36,740 bases of DNA from Bacillota bacterium (lineage in GTDB: Bacteria > Bacillota > UBA4882 > UBA8346): the NCBI GenBank assembly GCA_012728785.1, contig JAAYEK010000229.1, positions 1 to 36,740 on the forward strand. Direction: 5' to 3'. Positions 11,039-36,740 of this stretch are shown here, piece after piece; position 1 is the first letter of the stretch, and every line of letters starts with the position of its first letter. A program made the translations under genes and the position numbers. The notes under the pieces were generated by a model that had not been told where the DNA came from, ran no database searches, and saw nothing but the letters and a program-made list of their open reading frames with translations.

Positions 11039-14000
11039 CTTATGCCGTTTCTCTTAAAGAGCTGTTCAAAGAGGGCGACGCGGACAACCCTGAAACCCCT
11101 TTAATCAAAGCCGTAATTCTCTCCGCAAAACGGATTAACAACTTGCTACATAAAGGTAAAATCTTAAAGGACCGATTGAATTCCTTGGCCATCGCCCATG
11201 ATTTTACCCAACTTTACAATGCAAAACAACGCTTATTTGCAATTGGTTATAACATTTCTTCCAAACAGCTCGATGACTCCTACTATGATCTGTTGGCTTC
11301 CGAAGCCAGGCAAGCAAGTTTTATATCAATCGCGTTGGAACAAATTCCGGTCAACCACTGGTTCAAATTAAACCGCACCATGGCTACGATCCAAGAAGGA
11401 CCAGTGCTTGTTTCTTGGAGCGGCACCATGTTTGAGTATTTGATGCCTTTACTTTTAATGCCCGGCTATCGGCATACCTTATGGGAGACAACTTATCGTT
11501 CAGTTGTTAAACACCAAATAAGATATGCCGCCAAAAAATTGGGATTACCATGGGGAATCTCCGAATCGGGTTTTAACATCAAAGACTTAAATCAAAATTA
11601 TCAGTATCAAGCTTTTGGAGTCCCCGGATTGGGGTTAAAGCAAGGATTGGAAAAAGATCGCGTAATCACACCTTATGCTACATTTTTAGCCGCCCCGGTT
11701 GCTCCAGAAGCGGCCATCAACAATTTGCGCCATTTAGATAAACTCCGGGCCCTTGGGGAGTTTGGCTTTTACGAAGCGCTTGATTTTACACCTAATCGTT
11801 TACCGGAACACACCCACTATGTTTTAATTAAAAGTTATATGGTTCACCATCAGGGAATGATCATGATTTCCCTGGCCAATCTACTTCTTCGAAATTCTTT
11901 CCAAAAGCGATTTTTATCCGAACCAAGAATAAAGGCGACTGAATTGTTATTGTGCGAACGCGTTCCGAACCGGGCAATAACCATCAGCAAAAAACCTTTG
12001 GAGTTAACGCCGATTTCAAATCTCCGCGAAAGCGGCGCCGAACTGCGCTCTTTTTACGGTATTGATACTCCGCTTCCCGAAGCCAGATTTTTATCAAACG
12101 GTAAGTATTTAGTAATGATCACTAATAGCGGGGCCGGTTTTAGCCGCTGGAAAAACATCCTGGTCAACCGTTGGTCTGAAGATTTAACAAGAGATGTCCA
12201 CGGAACTCATTTTTATATCCGAAATATGACTGATAACTCGTTGTGGTCACCAACCTATCAACCTTGTCGGATCAAGGCCGACGACTCCGTAATGAAATTT
12301 TCCCTGGAAAAAATCTGCTATACACGGACTGATGGAGATATTCACACAAACATGGAACTTTGCGTTTCTCCGGAAACGGACGCCGAAATTAGGCAAATAA
12401 CCCTTAGAAATGACGGCAATTCACCCCAGGTCCTTGAGATAACAAGTTATTTAGAATTGGCGCTGGCATCGATGGATGAATATAACGCCCACCCAGTTTT
12501 CAGCAAACTTTATGTTGAGACCGAAATTGAACCCAATCTAGAAACCCTATTGGCGCATCGCCGTTCCGAAAAATCAAACGATGACAACCCTTGGTTTTTA
12601 CATATGGTGGTAGTCGATGGACAAATATTCGGCGCACTGGAATATGAAACCGACCGGACCCGCTTCATTGGACGCGGGCGTTCGGTCAGCCTGCCTCAGG
12701 TTATTAACACTAAACATAGCTTATCCGGTACCGTAGGCTCGGTATTGGATCCTGTTTTTAGCTTAAGGCGTTGTGTAAATATTCAACCGGGAAAAGCGGC
12801 GCGATTTACATTTATTACTGGAGTCGCGCCCACCCGAAATGCTGCGCTGGAAATTGCTTATAAACTACGATCCCCGTACCAATTGGTTCGAACTTTCGAT
12901 CTTGCCTGGTCTAAAAACCGACTCGAAATTCGCGAGCTGAATTTAACGCCCCAACAAGTTAATCTCTTTCAATGGATGGCTGCGTATATTTTCTACTTCA
13001 ATCCCTATCGCCAGTCAAGAATCGAATCAACGATGCAAAACAACAAGGGTCAGTCGGGTTTATGGGCTTATGGCATATCCGGGGATTTACCGATTGTTTT
13101 AGTCCGGCTAGCCGACCTCTCAGAAATCGATCTGGCTGAGATGTTGATCAAAGCCTATAAATACTGGCGTCTTAAAGGATTAAGGGTCGATTTAGTGATT
13201 ATAAACGACTCTATTGGCAGCTATCAACAAGAACTACAAAATTCTTTACAACACTTAATAGAAACTTGCTCCCAAATGTACTACAATTCCGATCCGGCCG
13301 GTAAAAACGGACAAGTCTTTTTAATTGCCGGAAATCAACCATCTCCTGAGGATCTGCTTTTATTTGAAACTGTTGCCCGTTTATCGTTACGGAGTGATTG
13401 CGGCAACCTATTATCTCAAATGATGCAATTAAATTTGAAAACTTCACTTTTCCCGCCCCAAAGAGATATCCAACTACCCGAAGACCTTTCACAAGATACT
13501 TACGATGAACCGAAAAATTTGCTTTTCTTTAACGGTTTTGGCGGGTTTACGACTTGTGGCAGGGAATATCAAATTTGTTTAAAAACCAAAGAGCTCCTTC
13601 CTGCACCCTGGATTAATGTAATCGCCAATTCGAGTTTTGGCTTTCAAATATCCGAATCAGGTGGCGGTTATACCTGGGCTGAAAACAGCCGTGAGTTTAA
13701 AATATCTCCTTGGTCCAATGATCCTGTTTTGGATAGCCTAGGTGAGATCTGTTATTTGAGAGATGAAAAATCCGGTATAATATGGTCTTTAACTTCTTTG
13801 CCAATCCGGGACAATAATCCATATCTGGTTAACCATGGACAAGGATATACCACTCTTACCCAATTCAGTCAAGGAATTGAGCAAACTGCTACAGTTTTTG
13901 CGGCTCTCGACGATCCGGTAAAAATAATCCGGCTTAAGTTAAATAACACCAATAACGAAGTCCGCCACCTTTCGATCACCTATTATATCGAATGGGTTTT

Positions 14001-15936
14001 AGGCGTCTTGCGGGCTAAATCGGCTCCTTATATCGTTACCGAAACCGACTCCGTTAGCGGTGCTTTACTAGCCCGAAATATTTACCAGGAAGACTTCCCG
14101 AATTTTTATGGATTTCTCCAAGTCTGGACCGACGAACCGGATTTGGAACGAAGTTGGACCGGCGATCGGGTGGAGTTCATCGGTAGGAACGGAAGTTTGC
14201 GCTGTCCGGCGGCCTTGGAAAGATTATCTTTATCAAATAAAACCGGGGCCGGTTTCGATCCTTGCGGGGCATTACAAGTTAAAATTGCAATTCCAGCCGA
14301 AGCTGAAACCTCAATAACAATTTTAGTCGGCGCGGCCAAATCCCTGGATAAGGCTCGTGAATATGTAATGAAATTCAAAGATCCGACAAATATTAACGAC
14401 GCATACCAGGAAATAATTTCTTTTTGGGATCGGTTCTTGGGCCAAACCCAAGTTGACACTCCGGACCCGGGTTTTAATCTTATGATGAACCGATGGTTAC
14501 TTTATCAAACACTTTCTTGCAGGATTTGGTCCCGTTCCGCCTTCTATCAGGCAGGGGGCGCCTTTGGTTTTCGCGATCAATTACAAGATGTGCTTGCTCT
14601 GCTTCACACAAGCCCATCATTGGTACGGGACCAAATTTTATATCATGCGGCCCATCAATTTATCGAAGGAGATGTTCAACACTGGTGGCACGAGGAAACC
14701 CATCATGGTATCAGAACGAAATTCTCAGACGATCTATTATGGCTTCCTTACGCAGCTACCCGCTATACCGAACATACCGGAGATTATAATATCTGGGATG
14801 AGCTGATTCCGTTTCTGGAAAGCGCTCCTCTTGAAGAAAATGAATTTGAGAGATATGACTTTACTCAAATTTCCGAAAAGACCGGAACTTTATATGAACA
14901 CTGTATTCTTGCCATCGAGCGGGCGCTGCGTTTCGGTGAACACGGTTTACCTCTAATGGGCGCAGGCGATTGGAATGACGCGATGAATCGGGTAGGCCGT
15001 AATCAATTAGGTGAAAGTATTTGGCTGGGCTGGTTTTTATATTCCGTCCTTCAAAGCTTTATTCCGATATCTAATTATTTTAATGACTCCGGTCAAACCA
15101 AAAAGTATCAACAAATCGCCGCGCAATTAGCGGAATCTCTTAATCAAAACGGCTGGGATGGAAACTGGTATCGTCGCGCTTATAACGATCTGGGCGAACC
15201 TTTGGGTTCGATCCAAAACACCGAATGTCAGATAGACTGTATTGCCCAAGCTTGGGCTGTAATCTCCGGAGCGGCCGACCCAGATAAAGCAGTCTCAGCC
15301 ATGCAAGCTCTTGATCAAAAATTAGTTTCTCGGGAGGATTCCCTTGTTTGTTTACTGACCCCTCCTTTTTCCAAAACCAATCCAAGCCCCGGCTATATTC
15401 AGGCCTATCCCCCAGGAGTCCGGGAAAATGGAGGCCAATACACCCATGCGGCAGTCTGGGCTATAATTGCCTGGGCTAAGCTAGGGGAAGGAAACCAAGC
15501 TTATTCATTATTCCGTCTTTTAAATCCAATTAACCACTCTCGAACCGATAGCGAAATTCAGCGTTATCGAGTAGAGCCTTATGTAATGGCAGCCGACATT
15601 TACTCCATTCCGCCATATACCGGAAGAGGCGGCTGGACTTGGTATACCGGCGCCGCCGGATGGATGTATCAGGCTGGTTTGGAATGGGTGTTGGGGATTA
15701 AGAAAAGAGGTTCCCGTTTATATATAGAGCCTTGTATTCCCGAGGAGTGGTCTGAATTTTCGGTATCCTATAAGTACCAAGACACTTTATATGAGATTAA
15801 AGTCAAAAACCCATTGCATAAGCAAACCGGAGGAACAGCCCTAAAGTTAGACGGTAAAACCGTCAATCCGAAAAAAGGAATTTTGCTAAAGGATGATAAA
15901 AAAGCGCATCTAGTAGAGCTAACAATTTACTCCTGA
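11023..15936 (+). CDS. ndvB: Cyclic beta-1,2-glucan synthase, C-terminal part (glycoamylase-like and GH94), frameshifted
   Basis: This frame is open from 11023 (after TGA 11020-11022) to TGA 15936 and continues the preceding entry in the -1 frame. It has no start codon with a ribosome site at its head; the first candidate (TTG 11143) lies inside a domain. It completes the glycoamylase-like domain (GPVLVSWSGTMFEYLMPLL; VHHQGMIMISLANLLL). Two GH94-associated beta-sandwich regions follow (GYDLP-like SFYGIDTPLPEARFLSNGKY; NGFGGFTTCGREYQI), then the GH94 (beta/alpha) catalytic domain with FGFRDQLQD and GAGDWNDAMNRVG. Counting from TTG 11143, the Asp of GDWND is residue 1276; in GH94 the corresponding Asp is the general acid. 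In NdvB this half trims chain length by phosphorolysis. If T5 at 11032-11036 were T6, both parts would read as one protein of about 2870 residues. Confidence 0.85.
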   Translation, partial: YSYFLAYAVSLKELFKEGDADNPETPLIKAVILSAKRINNLLHKGKILKDRLNSLAIAHDFTQLYNAKQRLFAIGYNISSKQLDDSYYDLLASEARQASFISIALEQIPVNHWFKLNRTMATIQEGPVLVSWSGTMFEYLMPLLLMPGYRHTLWETTYRSVVKHQIRYAAKKLGLPWGISESGFNIKDLNQNYQYQAFGVPGLGLKQGLEKDRVITPYATFLAAPVAPEAAINNLRHLDKLRALGEFGFYEALDFTPNRLPEHTHYVLIKSYMVHHQGMIMISLANLLLRNSFQKRFLSEPRIKATELLLCERVPNRAITISKKPLELTPISNLRESGAELRSFYGIDTPLPEARFLSNGKYLVMITNSGAGFSRWKNILVNRWSEDLTRDVHGTHFYIRNMTDNSLWSPTYQPCRIKADDSVMKFSLEKICYTRTDGDIHTNMELCVSPETDAEIRQITLRNDGNSPQVLEITSYLELALASMDEYNAHPVFSKLYVETEIEPNLETLLAHRRSEKSNDDNPWFLHMVVVDGQIFGALEYETDRTRFIGRGRSVSLPQVINTKHSLSGTVGSVLDPVFSLRRCVNIQPGKAARFTFITGVAPTRNAALEIAYKLRSPYQLVRTFDLAWSKNRLEIRELNLTPQQVNLFQWMAAYIFYFNPYRQSRIESTMQNNKGQSGLWAYGISGDLPIVLVRLADLSEIDLAEMLIKAYKYWRLKGLRVDLVIINDSIGSYQQELQNSLQHLIETCSQMYYNSDPAGKNGQVFLIAGNQPSPEDLLLFETVARLSLRSDCGNLLSQMMQLNLKTSLFPPQRDIQLPEDLSQDTYDEPKNLLFFNGFGGFTTCGREYQICLKTKELLPAPWINVIANSSFGFQISESGGGYTWAENSREFKISPWSNDPVLDSLGEICYLRDEKSGIIWSLTSLPIRDNNPYLVNHGQGYTTLTQFSQGIEQTATVFAALDDPVKIIRLKLNNTNNEVRHLSITYYIEWVLGVLRAKSAPYIVTETDSVSGALLARNIYQEDFPNFYGFLQVWTDEPDLERSWTGDRVEFIGRNGSLRCPAALERLSLSNKTGAGFDPCGALQVKIAIPAEAETSITILVGAAKSLDKAREYVMKFKDPTNINDAYQEIISFWDRFLGQTQVDTPDPGFNLMMNRWLLYQTLSCRIWSRSAFYQAGGAFGFRDQLQDVLALLHTSPSLVRDQILYHAAHQFIEGDVQHWWHEETHHGIRTKFSDDLLWLPYAATRYTEHTGDYNIWDELIPFLESAPLEENEFERYDFTQISEKTGTLYEHCILAIERALRFGEHGLPLMGAGDWNDAMNRVGRNQLGESIWLGWFLYSVLQSFIPISNYFNDSGQTKKYQQIAAQLAESLNQNGWDGNWYRRAYNDLGEPLGSIQNTECQIDCIAQAWAVISGAADPDKAVSAMQALDQKLVSREDSLVCLLTPPFSKTNPSPGYIQAYPPGVRENGGQYTHAAVWAIIAWAKLGEGNQAYSLFRLLNPINHSRTDSEIQRYRVEPYVMAADIYSIPPYTGRGGWTWYTGAAGWMYQAGLEWVLGIKKRGSRLYIEPCIPEEWSEFSVSYKYQDTLYEIKVKNPLHKQTGGTALKLDGKTVNPKKGILLKDDKKAHLVELTIYS

Positions 15937-31910: not shown

Positions 31911-31952
31911 AAAAAAACCGGACCGGCGCTTATCTTACGTCCGATCCGGTTT
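31911..31952 (-). terminator. Rho-independent terminator of the biosynthetic operon
   Basis: On the minus strand AACCGGATCGG pairs with CCGGTCCGGTT (11 positions, one T-T mismatch) around a 14-base loop, followed by seven T. It begins about 8 bases past the stop of the C45 hydrolase gene. This is the clearest intrinsic terminator in the window. Confidence 0.85.
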
Positions 31953-31959
31953 TTAGATT

Positions 31960-33732
31960 CTATTGTTGATATTCTTCATATTTGATTCGAAACTTTTCAT
32001 CCGGGACTGATACTTTAGACATCTTATCATATAAAGCACAATACTGTTCAATATAATAATCCGCTTTTGTTACATTTTTTAGTTGTTGATGTATCCGGAC
32101 GAGATTGAGTAAAACTTCCAACTGTTCGCTTTCATAGTTAATTCGGCTATTATAAGCCTTCTCCAGAGTTAGCGCCGCTTTTTCATATTCTCCTATTTGA
32201 ATTAATATTTCGCCCTTCACCTTATATAAAAAACCAAAGTCGGGATACTCTTTAAGAAGCCGGTCGGCAAGGCGAATGAGTTTTACGCCTCGATCCCTTT
32301 GAGGTTCTTTTTGGTAGCTATTATAGAGATAATATAATTGCCGTAGTGTTAAGTCGGCATTAAAATCAGTTATTGCAAATATTTTTTCATAATCCCTTTG
32401 AAAGGAGAGCATTTGATACTTATCGACCCACTCAAGTAAATCTTTGATCGGTTTAGTTTTTCTTTGCGGTAATTCTTCACGATATACCTTAATGCTCATG
32501 TCGCTGATCTTTATCTGATAGATCGTGCCCCAAGCGCTAAACCCGCCCTCAGAACCATAGTAAACAGTATCATTATAAAGGTCCATTACCATTGTATTTA
32601 AGGTCTTCTCATAGTTAACCGCAATACTCCCAGTTCCGTTCGGAATTTGTCTCCCCCAAAACTCAACTGAAGTAAACAAATTCAACATATCATCAATACT
32701 ACGAATACCTTTTCCCGCCAATCTCTTATCCATAACCATACTTCTAGTTACATTGGATTGATTAGCATAAACACTCATTTTTAAATATTTCCGGGCTTCT
32801 TTATTTTGGCCGTATCGATACGGTGAAAAAATCCGGTTAACCGCATATAAGTTTTGCTCATTCATCATGGGGCGCTCTTTGATAATGTTATCAAAGACGT
32901 CAAATATGGCAGCCTTTTTCTCCTTGGCGCTGGCCATACCAACTATCCATCCGGATTCATCAGTTTCGTAGCTTCGCAAAATATGCTCAGCCTCTGCAAA
33001 ATCTGTGGAATGGGCAAGCATCTCTCTGATCTTCAAGCCCATCGGAAGCCCTTTACAATCTTTTCGGAAGGCGCCCATACCATAGTTAAGGGTAATCGAA
33101 ATACCGTCCTTATTCACTCCATTAAAGAAACCGGGATAAGCCACCACTCCAAAATTAACATAGCTATGTTCATCATCAGGATTATATTCGGTAATGACCG
33201 GATATTCTCCCAAGAAAAGCAGATCAAAGTCGAAATTACGTCCATGGATTATTCGGTCTTCTAAATCGGCAAAAACCAACGTACACCCTGGTTCCAGACT
33301 TCCGGCACCAAAGGTAAAGAAGACTAAAGTACTATAAGCTACACCGCTCCCATCGGCGATACCCCGTAACTCATCCTTATATTTTTGGGGCAGTCTCTTT
33401 TCCAATTGACCGATATGTAAATTAAGCAAGATACCGGTGAATGGTTTTAAATACCAAGGGATTCTTGCTTTTACGGAGTTAATTAACACATCAAATTTCC
33501 GGGCGATTTCGGTGACTTCACTTTTTAGTAGAACTCCGTATTGAAGACCCATTTCATAATAATCGCCCTCTAATTTTAAAACCGGAATCCGGTAACTACG
33601 ATTTACTTCCCCTTTATGGAAAATATGTATTTGACCATTGACTTTAATTTGTCCTTGATAATCGTTAGCCCCATAAATATTACAACCGAATAAAACTAGC
33701 AATAACAATAGTACTAAAATTCTTTCTTTCAT
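31960..33732 (-). CDS. C45-type (acyl-CoA:6-APA acyltransferase-like) Ntn hydrolase lipoprotein with TPR tail
   Basis: This 590-residue protein begins with a lipoprotein signal ending in VLFGC (Cys17), so it is probably anchored outside the cytoplasmic membrane. The middle is a peptidase C45/choloylglycine-hydrolase-like Ntn domain. The presumed autocatalytic nucleophile is Cys150 (LEPGCTLVFAD), then HGRNFDFD (163-170), and NKDGISITLNYG further on. The last 150 residues are helical with TPR character (YKVKGEILIQIGEYEKAALT). Family members cleave or form amide bonds, as in penicillin side-chain exchange. The start ATG 33732 has GGAGGG 10 bases upstream. It is the last gene of the NRPS-like/PP-loop group, 80 bases after the PP-loop gene. 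Processing of the operon's product, or self-resistance, are natural guesses. Confidence 0.82.
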   Translation of the reverse strand: MKERILVLLLLLVLFGCNIYGANDYQGQIKVNGQIHIFHKGEVNRSYRIPVLKLEGDYYEMGLQYGVLLKSEVTEIARKFDVLINSVKARIPWYLKPFTGILLNLHIGQLEKRLPQKYKDELRGIADGSGVAYSTLVFFTFGAGSLEPGCTLVFADLEDRIIHGRNFDFDLLFLGEYPVITEYNPDDEHSYVNFGVVAYPGFFNGVNKDGISITLNYGMGAFRKDCKGLPMGLKIREMLAHSTDFAEAEHILRSYETDESGWIVGMASAKEKKAAIFDVFDNIIKERPMMNEQNLYAVNRIFSPYRYGQNKEARKYLKMSVYANQSNVTRSMVMDKRLAGKGIRSIDDMLNLFTSVEFWGRQIPNGTGSIAVNYEKTLNTMVMDLYNDTVYYGSEGGFSAWGTIYQIKISDMSIKVYREELPQRKTKPIKDLLEWVDKYQMLSFQRDYEKIFAITDFNADLTLRQLYYLYNSYQKEPQRDRGVKLIRLADRLLKEYPDFGFLYKVKGEILIQIGEYEKAALTLEKAYNSRINYESEQLEVLLNLVRIHQQLKNVTKADYYIEQYCALYDKMSKVSVPDEKFRIKYEEYQQ

Positions 33733-33812
33733 GTCATCTAATCCCTCCAACATAAAACTATTGCTTCCATGTGCTGAAATGATATGTGTTGATATCTTAT
33801 TATAAAGGTTGA

Positions 33813-35039
33813 TCAGGGAATCCCGCGGTTATAGGCGAGACTCAAAAATTTCGATAATTGTTCCTGATTGATATTAACCGTTAATTTTTTTACCAACTCC
33901 CAATTAATTGGCGGTGGATTCGGACTGGCAAAAGGCTTTCCTACCAGTACCTGTTCTACTTCCTCCCTTGTCATTTTTGCAACCTTACAAAAAAGTTCCA
34001 TCTCGGGAGGTTCAGCCTGATTATAGTGAATCGTGGGTAAAACTTCCTCAAATAATTCTTTGGATATTCTGCCCCAACGCCTTTCGGCGGCAATTTCCAA
34101 ATAGTCTAAGTTTAGCATATTTTGTTTATAAGCCAAATACCCTTTTAAATGCTCCATAATACAACTGGTATGACCGGCGGAATGAGTATTGTTAGGTTTT
34201 TTCCATCCATATTGGGAAAGCACTTCCCCAATGATTTTGTGGTCAAAATTATAGATTAAGGAAAGGATATTGATATATCGTTCTTCCTGCATCATCTGCT
34301 GAAAATGTTTAAAACAATTCTGTAATAACTCTTCCATAGCTGGTGAATAATTTCCACAGGCAACATCCAAGAGTGCTCCAATCAAAAATCCCGGATCCTG
34401 CATCTGATATATACCCATTCCTCTCTCTTTCAATAGGGGCAGCATCAATTGCCTTTCATTTATATTAAACTCAAATAATAAACGGTTTTGAAACAAAGAA
34501 AGCTGTTGTCCAAAAGAGACTCCCATAATAATAAGGGGGGCTTCAGATGCAGCGATTTCCGGCGCGCAGAAAAGAAGCGCCGGTTGGGTACAAGCGCAAA
34601 ACCGGCCTAATTTCTTCAACCGGTTGCTATAAAATTCGGCTAAGTTATTTTCCCCAATTGAAATGAATTTATGGTCCAATCCTAGATTTTGCACCAGTTC
34701 TCGTAAATTTTGCTCATGTTGCTTACTAAAGAATCCGTTATCCCAAGTAACTGCCAACACTTTCAAACCAAGCTTTTTGGTTAGATAATAGGCCGCATAC
34801 CCACTGTCTTTACCCCCAGTGTACATAATCACCGCGTCATATTTTTGTTTCCCCTTAATCTGGTTGCATAGGGCTAAGAATTTTTCCTCATTTGCTTTAA
34901 AATTAACTTCATATAATTTTTGATTAGCTTCATAATCATTGCAAAAAACACAACACCCTTTATCATCAATAGGTAATGGTTCCCTGCCGTAAGTTATTTT
35001 GAAATCAGGCAATCCGCATTGAACACAATGTTTACTCAA
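33813..35039 (-). CDS. PP-loop (alpha-ANH, N-type ATP pyrophosphatase) enzyme with N-terminal zinc knuckle
   Basis: This 408-residue protein has an N-terminal zinc-binding pattern (C5-x2-C8 ... C30-x2-C33) and then YDAVIMYTGGKDSGYAAYYL, with TGGKDS (74-79) as the PP-loop that binds ATP and releases pyrophosphate. The layout resembles WbpG-type amidotransferases and other adenylating enzymes that make amides, thioamides or thiolated products. A second Cys pair occurs in RFCACTQPALLFC. The C-terminal 200 residues are unassigned. It starts at TTG 35039 with GGAGGGG 6 bases upstream. The gene lies directly after the NRPS-like gene, so its substrate is likely carrier-bound or derived from it. Chemistry (N, S or C transfer) is not decided by sequence. 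Confidence 0.75.
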   Translation of the reverse strand: MSKHCVQCGLPDFKITYGREPLPIDDKGCCVFCNDYEANQKLYEVNFKANEEKFLALCNQIKGKQKYDAVIMYTGGKDSGYAAYYLTKKLGLKVLAVTWDNGFFSKQHEQNLRELVQNLGLDHKFISIGENNLAEFYSNRLKKLGRFCACTQPALLFCAPEIAASEAPLIIMGVSFGQQLSLFQNRLLFEFNINERQLMLPLLKERGMGIYQMQDPGFLIGALLDVACGNYSPAMEELLQNCFKHFQQMMQEERYINILSLIYNFDHKIIGEVLSQYGWKKPNNTHSAGHTSCIMEHLKGYLAYKQNMLNLDYLEIAAERRWGRISKELFEEVLPTIHYNQAEPPEMELFCKVAKMTREEVEQVLVGKPFASPNPPPINWELVKKLTVNINQEQLSKFLSLAYNRGIP

Positions 35040-35064
35040 TCTTTACCCCTCCATGTATTTATAC

Positions 35065-35241
35065 TTAACCTTCATAGAACCATCTTTCGCCAATCTCTTT
35101 AGGATTTTCTTTCCATTGCCCTACTCATACAAATTCAATTTGCATATCAGACACTATTTGATCATTATTTACCTTGATGGAACAATGGCCGGTGAAATAA
35201 TTGACCCTCGTTCCTACTGACCCTAAATGATAAGCTCTATC
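35065..35241 (-). pseudogene. Broken C-terminal extension of the NRPS-like gene
   Basis: Directly past the annotated stop (TGA 35242-35240), the +1 frame reads protein-like sequence: DRAYHLGSVGTRVNYFTGHC, then SIKVNNDQIVSDMQIEFV, an in-frame TGA (35127-35125), then VGQWKENPKEIGERWFYEG and TAA at 35067-35065. That TAA is 25 bases before the next start and just before its ribosome site, normal operon spacing. The frame joins the upstream gene if the five-T run (A5 at 35242-35246 on the plus strand) had four T. So the original gene probably ended at 35065 and has one frameshift plus one stop. The piece matches no family I know. Confidence 0.5.
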
Positions 35242-36740
35242 AAAAATTAATACTACCTAATTTTTCAAATAACAATTGCTCCATTTTTTTTATTTTGTCA
35301 AAACTAGCAATATAATCTTTTCCAAATAAGTATTGCTTTTGTTCAAATTTTTCAAATATAACTCCTAATAAGCCCCGCCATGCTTCCACTGTAGTATCAA
35401 TCATCTGTATTGTTCCATTTTTTGAGATATTAGCATATTCATTTTGATAATTAATCAGTATATCTTTCAATTGTACCCTTCGCGAAATAATATTCCATAC
35501 TTTCCAATCTAAAACCATTTTCAGATCGTAACCTTTAAAACAAGGGCTCGCTTGATTCAGGTAAAGGGTTTCTTGATTACAAATAGTCATCAGTTCATCC
35601 AATGCCTCAAAACCATGTAATATTTTATCTCCTTTATCGTATTGAGCTGGTTGTGAATTATTTTTAATCATTAATGAAACTTTTTCCTTAAGATTAAATT
35701 CCTTAATCAAATTTTCAGTTTTAATATCAATGGTGGTATAGTATAAATCAACATTAAAAGCATGTTGTAAGTCATCTTTTTTAACAACTCCCACTGATTT
35801 GTTTTTAGCATAGGGGATAAAATTGCTGTTAAGAGTATAGGGCATTTCTACATAATACAGCATTTGCGAGTCATAGGCCACTGCCATAAAAGTATGTAGG
35901 TCTTTGGCCATATCTTCCGGCGTTTCGGTTACTTCGAAATCGAAATCAATAAAATTTTTATGAAAGGGAAGTTTCTTGTTGTATGTTTTAATAATAGGCA
36001 ACTTACCCTGATCTAATAGTTTTTCGATTGCGCCGAGGCTTTGAAATCCTTCCCCTTTGATAATTTCGGCATGATACACATCGTTTAAATCCGGAAAATT
36101 ATTTACATCAATATTGTAGATTTCTCCACTAGAATTTATTATCAAACTGAACGAGATATCGTTAAGAAACATATGTGAGTAATCTTTAAAGTTTGAGATA
36201 TTACGTTTCATAGTATAATAAAGCATCAATACATTACAATTCATGTTCTGAGCAAGCGGATCGATATCACCATCTCTCGTGAAAAAATAGTCGATTTCCA
36301 AATTTTTTTCAAAATGTGATGGTAATTTTTCCGGTTCGACGTAAGACCGTCGTTTTGATGCAAGTTCAGCCAGATCTGAAATCGTCGGATGTTTGATCAA
36401 ATCTTCAAGTGTTAACCCATAATCCTTTAATTTAGCGATAATCTGTACTGCTTTTAGCGAATCGCCGCCTAGATCATAAAATCTATCAAATCTACTGATC
36501 TGTAATATCCCTAGAACATCCCGCCACACTTGCCTAATCACTGTTTCAGTACTGTCTTTCACATCATCAAAGTTCGTATTGTCTCCAGTTTCCCTTCTTT
36601 TCTCATTCAAACTCTCGCCACCGGCGGCCTTTAACAACCGACGGTCCACTTTTCCGGTAAAGGTCAACGGTAAAGCGGTAAGCTTAATGAAGGAACCGGG
36701 CATCATATAATCGGGCAACCGTTCCCGGAGATGCTCCAAT
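35240..36740 (-). CDS. NRPS-like protein, 3' part: A-domain end, carrier domain, C39/BtrH-like Cys-His domain (partial)
   Basis: The gene runs off the right edge. Visible residues begin in the adenylation-domain C-terminus (LRERLPDYMMPGSF, then the A10 motif TGKVDRRLL). A peptidyl-carrier domain follows with FYDLGGDSLKAVQII, Ser94 being the phosphopantetheine site. From about residue 145 comes a 350-residue domain that I read as papain-like of the C39/BtrH type: MNCNVLMLYYT with Cys168, a linker rich in aromatic strands, then LHTFMAVAYDSQMLYYVE with His282 and Asp290. Its helical tail is WRGLLGVIFEKF. BtrH transfers an acyl group from a carrier protein to an amine, so off-loading or trans-acylation is a reasonable role. 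No thioesterase is present. Coding signal continues past TGA 35240 (see the broken extension). Confidence 0.78.
   Translation of the reverse strand, partial: LEHLRERLPDYMMPGSFIKLTALPLTFTGKVDRRLLKAAGGESLNEKRRETGDNTNFDDVKDSTETVIRQVWRDVLGILQISRFDRFYDLGGDSLKAVQIIAKLKDYGLTLEDLIKHPTISDLAELASKRRSYVEPEKLPSHFEKNLEIDYFFTRDGDIDPLAQNMNCNVLMLYYTMKRNISNFKDYSHMFLNDISFSLIINSSGEIYNIDVNNFPDLNDVYHAEIIKGEGFQSLGAIEKLLDQGKLPIIKTYNKKLPFHKNFIDFDFEVTETPEDMAKDLHTFMAVAYDSQMLYYVEMPYTLNSNFIPYAKNKSVGVVKKDDLQHAFNVDLYYTTIDIKTENLIKEFNLKEKVSLMIKNNSQPAQYDKGDKILHGFEALDELMTICNQETLYLNQASPCFKGYDLKMVLDWKVWNIISRRVQLKDILINYQNEYANISKNGTIQMIDTTVEAWRGLLGVIFEKFEQKQYLFGKDYIASFDKIKKMEQLLFEKLGSINF

Follow-up and report, generated by a model that had tools for sequence, protein, structure and literature searches.

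What releases the product of a nonribosomal peptide synthetase (NRPS) whose last carrier is followed by a papain-like Cys-His domain instead of a thioesterase (TE), and what do the genes behind it contribute? The question is raised by the right end of a 36,740-nucleotide stretch of DNA from a Bacillota bacterium (GenBank assembly GCA_012728785.1, contig JAAYEK010000229.1), referred to here as the window, which is the whole of one contig (C225) of a draft genome of 3.70 Mb in 296 contigs. Three minus-strand open reading frames (ORFs) lie at this end, in the order NRPS tail, PP-loop gene and C45 gene. With moderate confidence, we read the locus as the 3′ end of an NRPS in which a CcbD/CtaG-type amide synthase is fused behind the last carrier, together with PP-loop editing and trimming outside the cytoplasm. 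The product is probably an unusual amide-capped peptide, because a CcbD/CtaG-like domain replaces the release enzyme and PP-loop and acyl-cutting genes follow, and it possibly contains sulfur. The NRPS tail, including its peptidyl carrier protein (PCP) domain, is arranged as follows.

36739-35240, minus strand: NRPS-tail ORF, 499 amino acids, open at the contig end
36620..36739, minus strand: C-terminal end (last ~40 residues) of the NRPS adenylation (A) domain, cut by the contig end; TGKVDRRLL in the translation is the A10 motif
36362..36541, minus strand: PCP domain with LGGDSL phosphopantetheine site; PF00550 at residues 67-126, E 1.4e-11 (above cut-off), and a scan of this genome
35243..36325, minus strand: CcbD/CtaG-like papain-fold C-terminal domain, protein residues 139-499 (~360), predicted from 15 homologues and a fold match to have a papain-like core and a C-terminal helical domain
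36236..36238, minus strand: codon of Cys168, predicted nucleophile, invariant in 16/16
35894..35896, minus strand: codon of His282, predicted catalytic His, invariant in 16/16
35846..35848, minus strand: codon of Glu298, predicted third catalytic residue, Glu/Asp in 16/16

NCBIfam NRPS models span residues 2-133 of the 499-residue protein. Residues 139-499 have no Pfam or NCBIfam match of their own, and no PF00975-type thioesterase was found there behind the last PCP with either library. This part of the gene is AT-rich, with a GC content of ~0.31 against 0.35-0.45 nearby. A sequence-only reading of the window had proposed a carrier fused to a papain-like Cys-His domain in place of a TE, with C168 and H282 as its key residues. 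This holds, given the PF00550 match, the lack of a TE match, the CcbD/CtaG-type fold of a homologue model and the invariance of the two residues across the 16 aligned homologues.

The family formed by the C-terminal domain is genuine, and rare. When 61 relatives and ~400 genomes spread over the phylum were searched, it turned up in two genomes only, this one and G049, and a profile search of 298 genomes of G049's order recovered it in 13 genomes as 15 proteins (Paenibacillus-type), which with the window domain make up the 16-row alignment. In domain numbering C168 is Cys30, H282 is His144 and E298 is position 160. Fusion of this domain to a carrier was seen only in the window protein, the relatives being free-standing. 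A pattern search built from a four-row alignment matched one genome, Paenibacillus athensensis, where the domain occurs as three tandem free-standing proteins (L135:8577-12480); the 16-row alignment was too diverged for this use. Viral contigs scanned with the Cys domain as a single-protein query gave no match.

PDB sequence searches with profiles of the domain returned coiled-coil or chance matches only, so its kinship to CcbD and CtaG is drawn from fold and triad. With the P. athensensis relative as the query and the same four rows, AlphaFold reached a pLDDT of 71 and a pTM of 0.72, and this model has a papain-like core with a C-terminal helical domain, the whole-length CcbD-type fold. Foldseek against the PDB matched it at E<=1e-3 only to AziU3 (1.8e-8; entries 8gs1 and 7wuw at the top), CcbD (1.7e-5) and CtaG (2.1e-5), with generic peptidases such as cathepsins and C39 scoring far worse in the same structure search. 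VIA-align of the model gave CcbD a Z of 18.7 over 295 residues, AziU3 16.1 and CtaG ~14, the next unrelated structure reaching Z 10 and being confined to the helical part. The low-confidence model of the window domain matched only CtaG and AziU3 at E<=1e-3. Spacing of the predicted catalytic residues agrees with these fold relatives: Cys and His are 114 residues apart in the window (C168-H282), 112 in the P. athensensis relative (C26-H138) and 112 in CcbD (C19 from a PDB title, H131 from a review, PMC12945683), and the His-acid distance of 16 (H282-E298) equals that of H128/D144 in CtaG, whose residues were taken from PDB entry titles of the variants C11A, H128A and D144N. CcbD and LmbD depend on a carrier when they form the lincosamide amide, and they work by a ping-pong mechanism through a Cys-His-Glu triad (PMC12945683).

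The sequence-only reading had likened the domain to BtrH and the locus to the closthioamide genes. The class it pointed to, papain-like and carrier-acting, stood; BtrH as the closest parallel did not, the window domain giving no match to BtrH_N (PF14399) at E 1. CcbD and CtaG are the better parallel because only CcbD, AziU3 and CtaG match convincingly and PF14399 does not. The closthioamide comparison was apt, and is stronger than first thought since the structure search returns CtaG itself.

BtrH_N does match paralogues on contigs C5, C43 and C141 of the same genome. In four Bacilli genomes (G049, G464, G527 and G591) a second papain-like gene, with weak BtrH_N matches, is adjacent or close to the window-type gene. 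A domain of this second type occurs on contig C5 (L040:2-1336) as a PCP fusion, at the end of an assembly line containing a ketosynthase (KS). C5 carries on from C274, the contig with the KS-containing protein, through an in-frame overlap of 24 bases, and an overlap of 127 bases joins C274 to C107. With PCP fusions on both the window contig and C5, both members of the recurring neighbour pair are thus carrier fusions here, and it is possible that the two contigs belong to one cluster. An hhalign comparison of the window-type and BtrH-like partner alignments gave E 0.018 at a probability of 3%, and rank tests on these non-independent rows gave p 4e-5 and 0.04, which suggests that the two types may be distant relatives. 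An earlier proposal is that BtrH-like and Ntn-type proteins encoded in neighbourhoods of this kind act as carrier transacylases (PMC2922099).

The BtrH_N proteins on C43 (L140:4929-7282) and C141 (L149:874-3237) sit beside SPASM-type radical SAM proteins; the C43 region follows a polyketide synthase (PKS) and the C141 region adjoins a C39-type transporter peptidase. In G464 (L130) the cluster around the window-type protein encodes three BtrH-like proteins, and with them an AMP ligase, a HAD protein and several proteins of radical SAM-like type.

Downstream of the NRPS tail lie the following features.

35040..35239, minus strand: 200-nt gap between the NRPS and PP-loop genes, with a short decayed-looking reading frame that has one internal TGA
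33813..35039, minus strand: PP-loop enzyme (adenine nucleotide alpha-hydrolase superfamily), 408 amino acids, divergent WbuX family (TIGR03573, below cut-off), with a zinc knuckle plus C148/C150/C293
31960..33732 (ORF 33753-31960, 597 amino acids), minus strand: C45-family Ntn hydrolase with a lipoprotein-type signal and a TPR-like C-terminus (NF040521, PF03417)
31913..31954, minus strand: intrinsic terminator, hairpin -26 kcal/mol, z -4.7, then a T run

Three minus-strand genes with a strong terminator had been described from the sequence, and the ORFs and hairpin are indeed there. A terminator scan found no minus-strand terminator between the three genes, and we infer that they form one operon. 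The frame in the gap (35040-35239) is protein-like with no Pfam match and no known family, and is perhaps a decayed gene. Elsewhere in the window (11143-15936), a 1597-residue GH94-type glycosyl hydrolase with a cyclic beta-glucan synthase-like tail adjoins a 1235-residue protein without a Pfam match.

The PP-loop protein carries TGGKDS and the zinc knuckle CxxC...CxxC (C5, C8, C30 and C33) that had been read from its sequence, and three extra cysteines (C148, C150 and C293). TIGR03573, the N-acetyl sugar amidotransferase WbuX family, scores 118 bits over 361 residues, below its curated cut-off of 203, and sugar-cluster relatives of the enzyme score 340-386 bits. A second copy (TIGR03573 108 bits) occurs on contig C38 (L077:12702-13970) directly after another NRPS, which consists of C-A-PCP and a further condensation-type (C/E) domain and is part of a hybrid PKS/NRPS cluster. 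The three-cysteine signature is nearly all-or-none in nine PP-loop relatives, five having it and four being without any. The nearest relative of the NRPS-linked enzymes outside this genome, in G342 (L180:7722-12158), has as its neighbours a ThiF/E1-like protein and a B12 radical SAM protein rather than sugar genes. The closthioamide PP-loop enzyme had been named as CtaJ, which is in fact described as a transglutaminase; the thioamide enzyme is CtaC, which needs C154/C157/C284 and acts on carrier-bound chains, and CtaC homologues near NRPS genes have been reported, mostly in anaerobes (PMC6772006). In the C38 copy the cysteines are C155, C158 and C291 and the spacing from PP-loop to CxxC is 77, the same as in CtaC; in the window copy the spacing is 70, with CxC in place of CxxC. 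Because of the three extra cysteines, as in CtaC, we slightly favour thioamidation as the reaction of the window enzyme, with amidination as its main rival.

The third gene encodes a lipoprotein C45 Ntn hydrolase, as the sequence had indicated: NF040521 covers residues 62-396 with 124 bits (cut-off 85), PF03417 (AAT) is over its cut-off, Cys157 occupies the nucleophile position and the lipobox-like motif is LFGC. Its likelier start is the second ATG, near 33732, which has GGAGGG before it. On contigs C144 and C190, which overlap by 127 bases, membrane-anchored penicillin-amidase-type Ntn hydrolases lie beside NRPS/PKS genes of the same genome. Periplasmic Ntn acylases are known to trim NRPS products, PvdQ in the case of pyoverdine (PMC6206403) and GdnD as another (PMC10587159). 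An acyl-trimming role for the C45 protein is plausible because of these neighbours and these trimming acylases. On C144 (L136:850-9841) the genes for a penicillin amidase and an NRPS stand in one run with genes that by eye resemble those of sulfate activation (CysD/CysN/APS-kinase), a context suggesting that the peptide made is sulfated.

The route that we propose starts with transfer of the PCP-bound chain to Cys168 as a thioester. The thioester would then be attacked by an amine acceptor that His282/Glu298 activates; candidates are amino sugars, polyamines, amino acids and the amine group on a second unit bound to a carrier. The chain would leave as an amide and not as an acid. The PP-loop enzyme would adenylate one of the chain's amide carbonyls, probably with the chain still on its carrier, and exchange its oxygen for sulfur (a thioamide, CtaC-like) or for nitrogen (an amidine, WbuX-like). 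Once the product is exported, the C45 Ntn hydrolase anchored in the membrane would cut off or exchange an acyl cap, in the way that PvdQ acts on pyoverdine. The sequence data establish the order of the domains, the conservation of the triad, the fold class of a homologue, the PP-loop family with its cysteines and the C45 family; the chemistry of every step, with the acceptor, the choice of sulfur or nitrogen, the order of the steps and the role of the C45 protein, is what we infer by analogy with the systems named above.

Several observations weigh against this route. The NRPS gene lacks its 5′ part, and the sequence of the contig end is shared by no other contig of the assembly; contig overlaps of 127 or 24 bases exist among other NRPS contigs of the genome, and a matching open A domain at a contig end was found on none of the identified contigs. 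The NRPS gene is parted from the PP-loop gene by the 200-nt gap with its decayed-looking frame. Searches of the PDB with phmmer and hmmsearch found no sequence similarity to the CcbD or CtaG chains, and the AlphaFold model of the window domain itself, made from the four-row alignment, has a pLDDT of 44 and is not usable alone. Fold similarity by itself would leave the reaction unfixed, because AziU3, the best Foldseek match, shares the fold and takes its name from another reaction, the formation of an aziridine. The Bacilli relatives are mostly standalone, several of them outside any recognisable biosynthetic cluster. In the PP-loop protein the second cysteine is off by one residue (C150, not C151), the comparison with CtaC being made through published cysteine positions only, and C45 relatives in the other genomes examined are unlinked to NRPS genes.

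Given this fold relationship, one alternative is that the C-terminal domain carries out AziU3-like ring formation or some other carrier-independent reaction. AziU3 (8gs1, 7wuw) does head the Foldseek list at E 1.8e-8; however, CcbD outranks it in VIA-align (Z 18.7 against 16.1), the PCP fused directly to the domain speaks for a carrier-bound substrate, and the window showed no further gene of an aziridine pathway, so that we regard this as very unlikely. A better case can be made for a papain-fold TE replacement that hydrolyses or macrocyclises the chain without an external amine acceptor, as the domain occupies the exact TE position, a Cys-His-acid triad is able to hydrolyse thioesters, and papain-like folds are mostly hydrolases (PMC10318531). 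Even so, the close fold relatives with known chemistry, CcbD and CtaG, move acyl groups from carriers to amines, and the far weaker scores of cathepsins and C39 also point away from such a release domain, which we consider unlikely.

For the PP-loop enzyme, the alternative that it uses ammonia to give an amidine or a primary amide, like the annotated WbuX/WbpG sugar amidotransferases, and no thioamide, is a serious one that we would not be surprised to see hold. TIGR03573 is the best named family, and three-cysteine relatives in G159 and G171 exceed the WbuX cut-off in clusters with sugar-type genes, but the window protein reaches only 118 of the required 203 bits, its context is an NRPS and not sugar, no HisH/HisF-like ammonia supplier is found among the adjoining genes, and the neighbours of the G342 relative are the B12 radical SAM protein and ThiF/E1 homologue noted above. 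It could also be that the PP-loop and C45 genes are mere neighbours with no role in the NRPS product. The sequence-only reading had suggested looking for the three families together in other genomes, and there they are unlinked wherever examined, PP-loop beside NRPS recurring once and in this same genome; a conserved three-gene locus thus lacks support, and the gap with its decayed frame fits mere adjacency as well. Set against this are the shared strand and common terminator with none found between the genes, the PP-loop gene beside the NRPS on C38, and the Ntn hydrolases beside other NRPS/PKS genes of the genome, and we find mere adjacency rather doubtful. Overall, what the earlier reading observed is confirmed and its interpretation is partly supported.

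We therefore retain the reading of a fused amide synthase that would either release the chain or pass it on, with PP-loop editing of the backbone and extracytoplasmic trimming. A more speculative extension, which we hold only tentatively, is that the locus represents a new class of NRPS termination, in which a cis-fused amide synthase evolved with a carrier-fused BtrH-like partner, a WbuX-derived PP-loop enzyme gives the released peptides their thioamide or amidine groups, and a C45 lipoprotein acylase unmasks these peptides extracellularly.

Each part of the locus has a counterpart in a known system. PvdQ-type periplasmic acylases resemble the C45 protein as secreted or membrane-anchored Ntn hydrolases for which acyl-cap trimming after export is proposed, but they belong to another Ntn hydrolase family, and C45-NRPS linkage was not seen elsewhere. 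CtaC, the closthioamide thioamide synthetase of the AANH superfamily, shares the PP-loop, three extra cysteines and a thiotemplate context; it differs in that the second cysteine of the window protein is displaced by one and the family library places that protein in WbuX. If the proposal is true, NRPS-linked PP-loop genes would extend thioamide/amidine chemistry past closthioamide. The BtrH family (PF14399) is likewise made up of papain-like acyltransferases acting on a carrier, but the window domain has no match to it and their kinship is suggested by weak profile comparison only. CtaG, the closthioamide peptidyl transferase (PDB 9quz to 9qvs), matches in fold and in its His-acid spacing of 16, and its pathway also employs a PP-loop thioamide synthetase; it is standalone, however, links units borne by two free carriers with no canonical NRPS modules involved, and shares ~10-14% identity in structural alignments. 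Closest are the celesticetin and lincomycin condensing enzymes CcbD/LmbD (PDB 7yn1, 7yn2, 9dkr), with the same whole-length fold as the homologue (Z 18.7 over 295 residues), a Cys-His-Glu type triad at near-identical Cys-His spacing and, in CcbD, use of a carrier-bound acyl group. CcbD is free-standing with its carrier in a separate protein, CcbZ, whereas the window domain has the carrier fused in front of it at the end of an NRPS. In the lincomycin and closthioamide pathways the papain-fold enzymes that form amides are few, and they are free-standing; if our reading is true, the carrier-fused version would be a natural offloading module that joins amines of choice to the C-terminus as amides, which would be of use in engineering, and the domain family (15 relatives, unnamed in Pfam/NCBIfam searches) and its partner family would be handles for mining such clusters.

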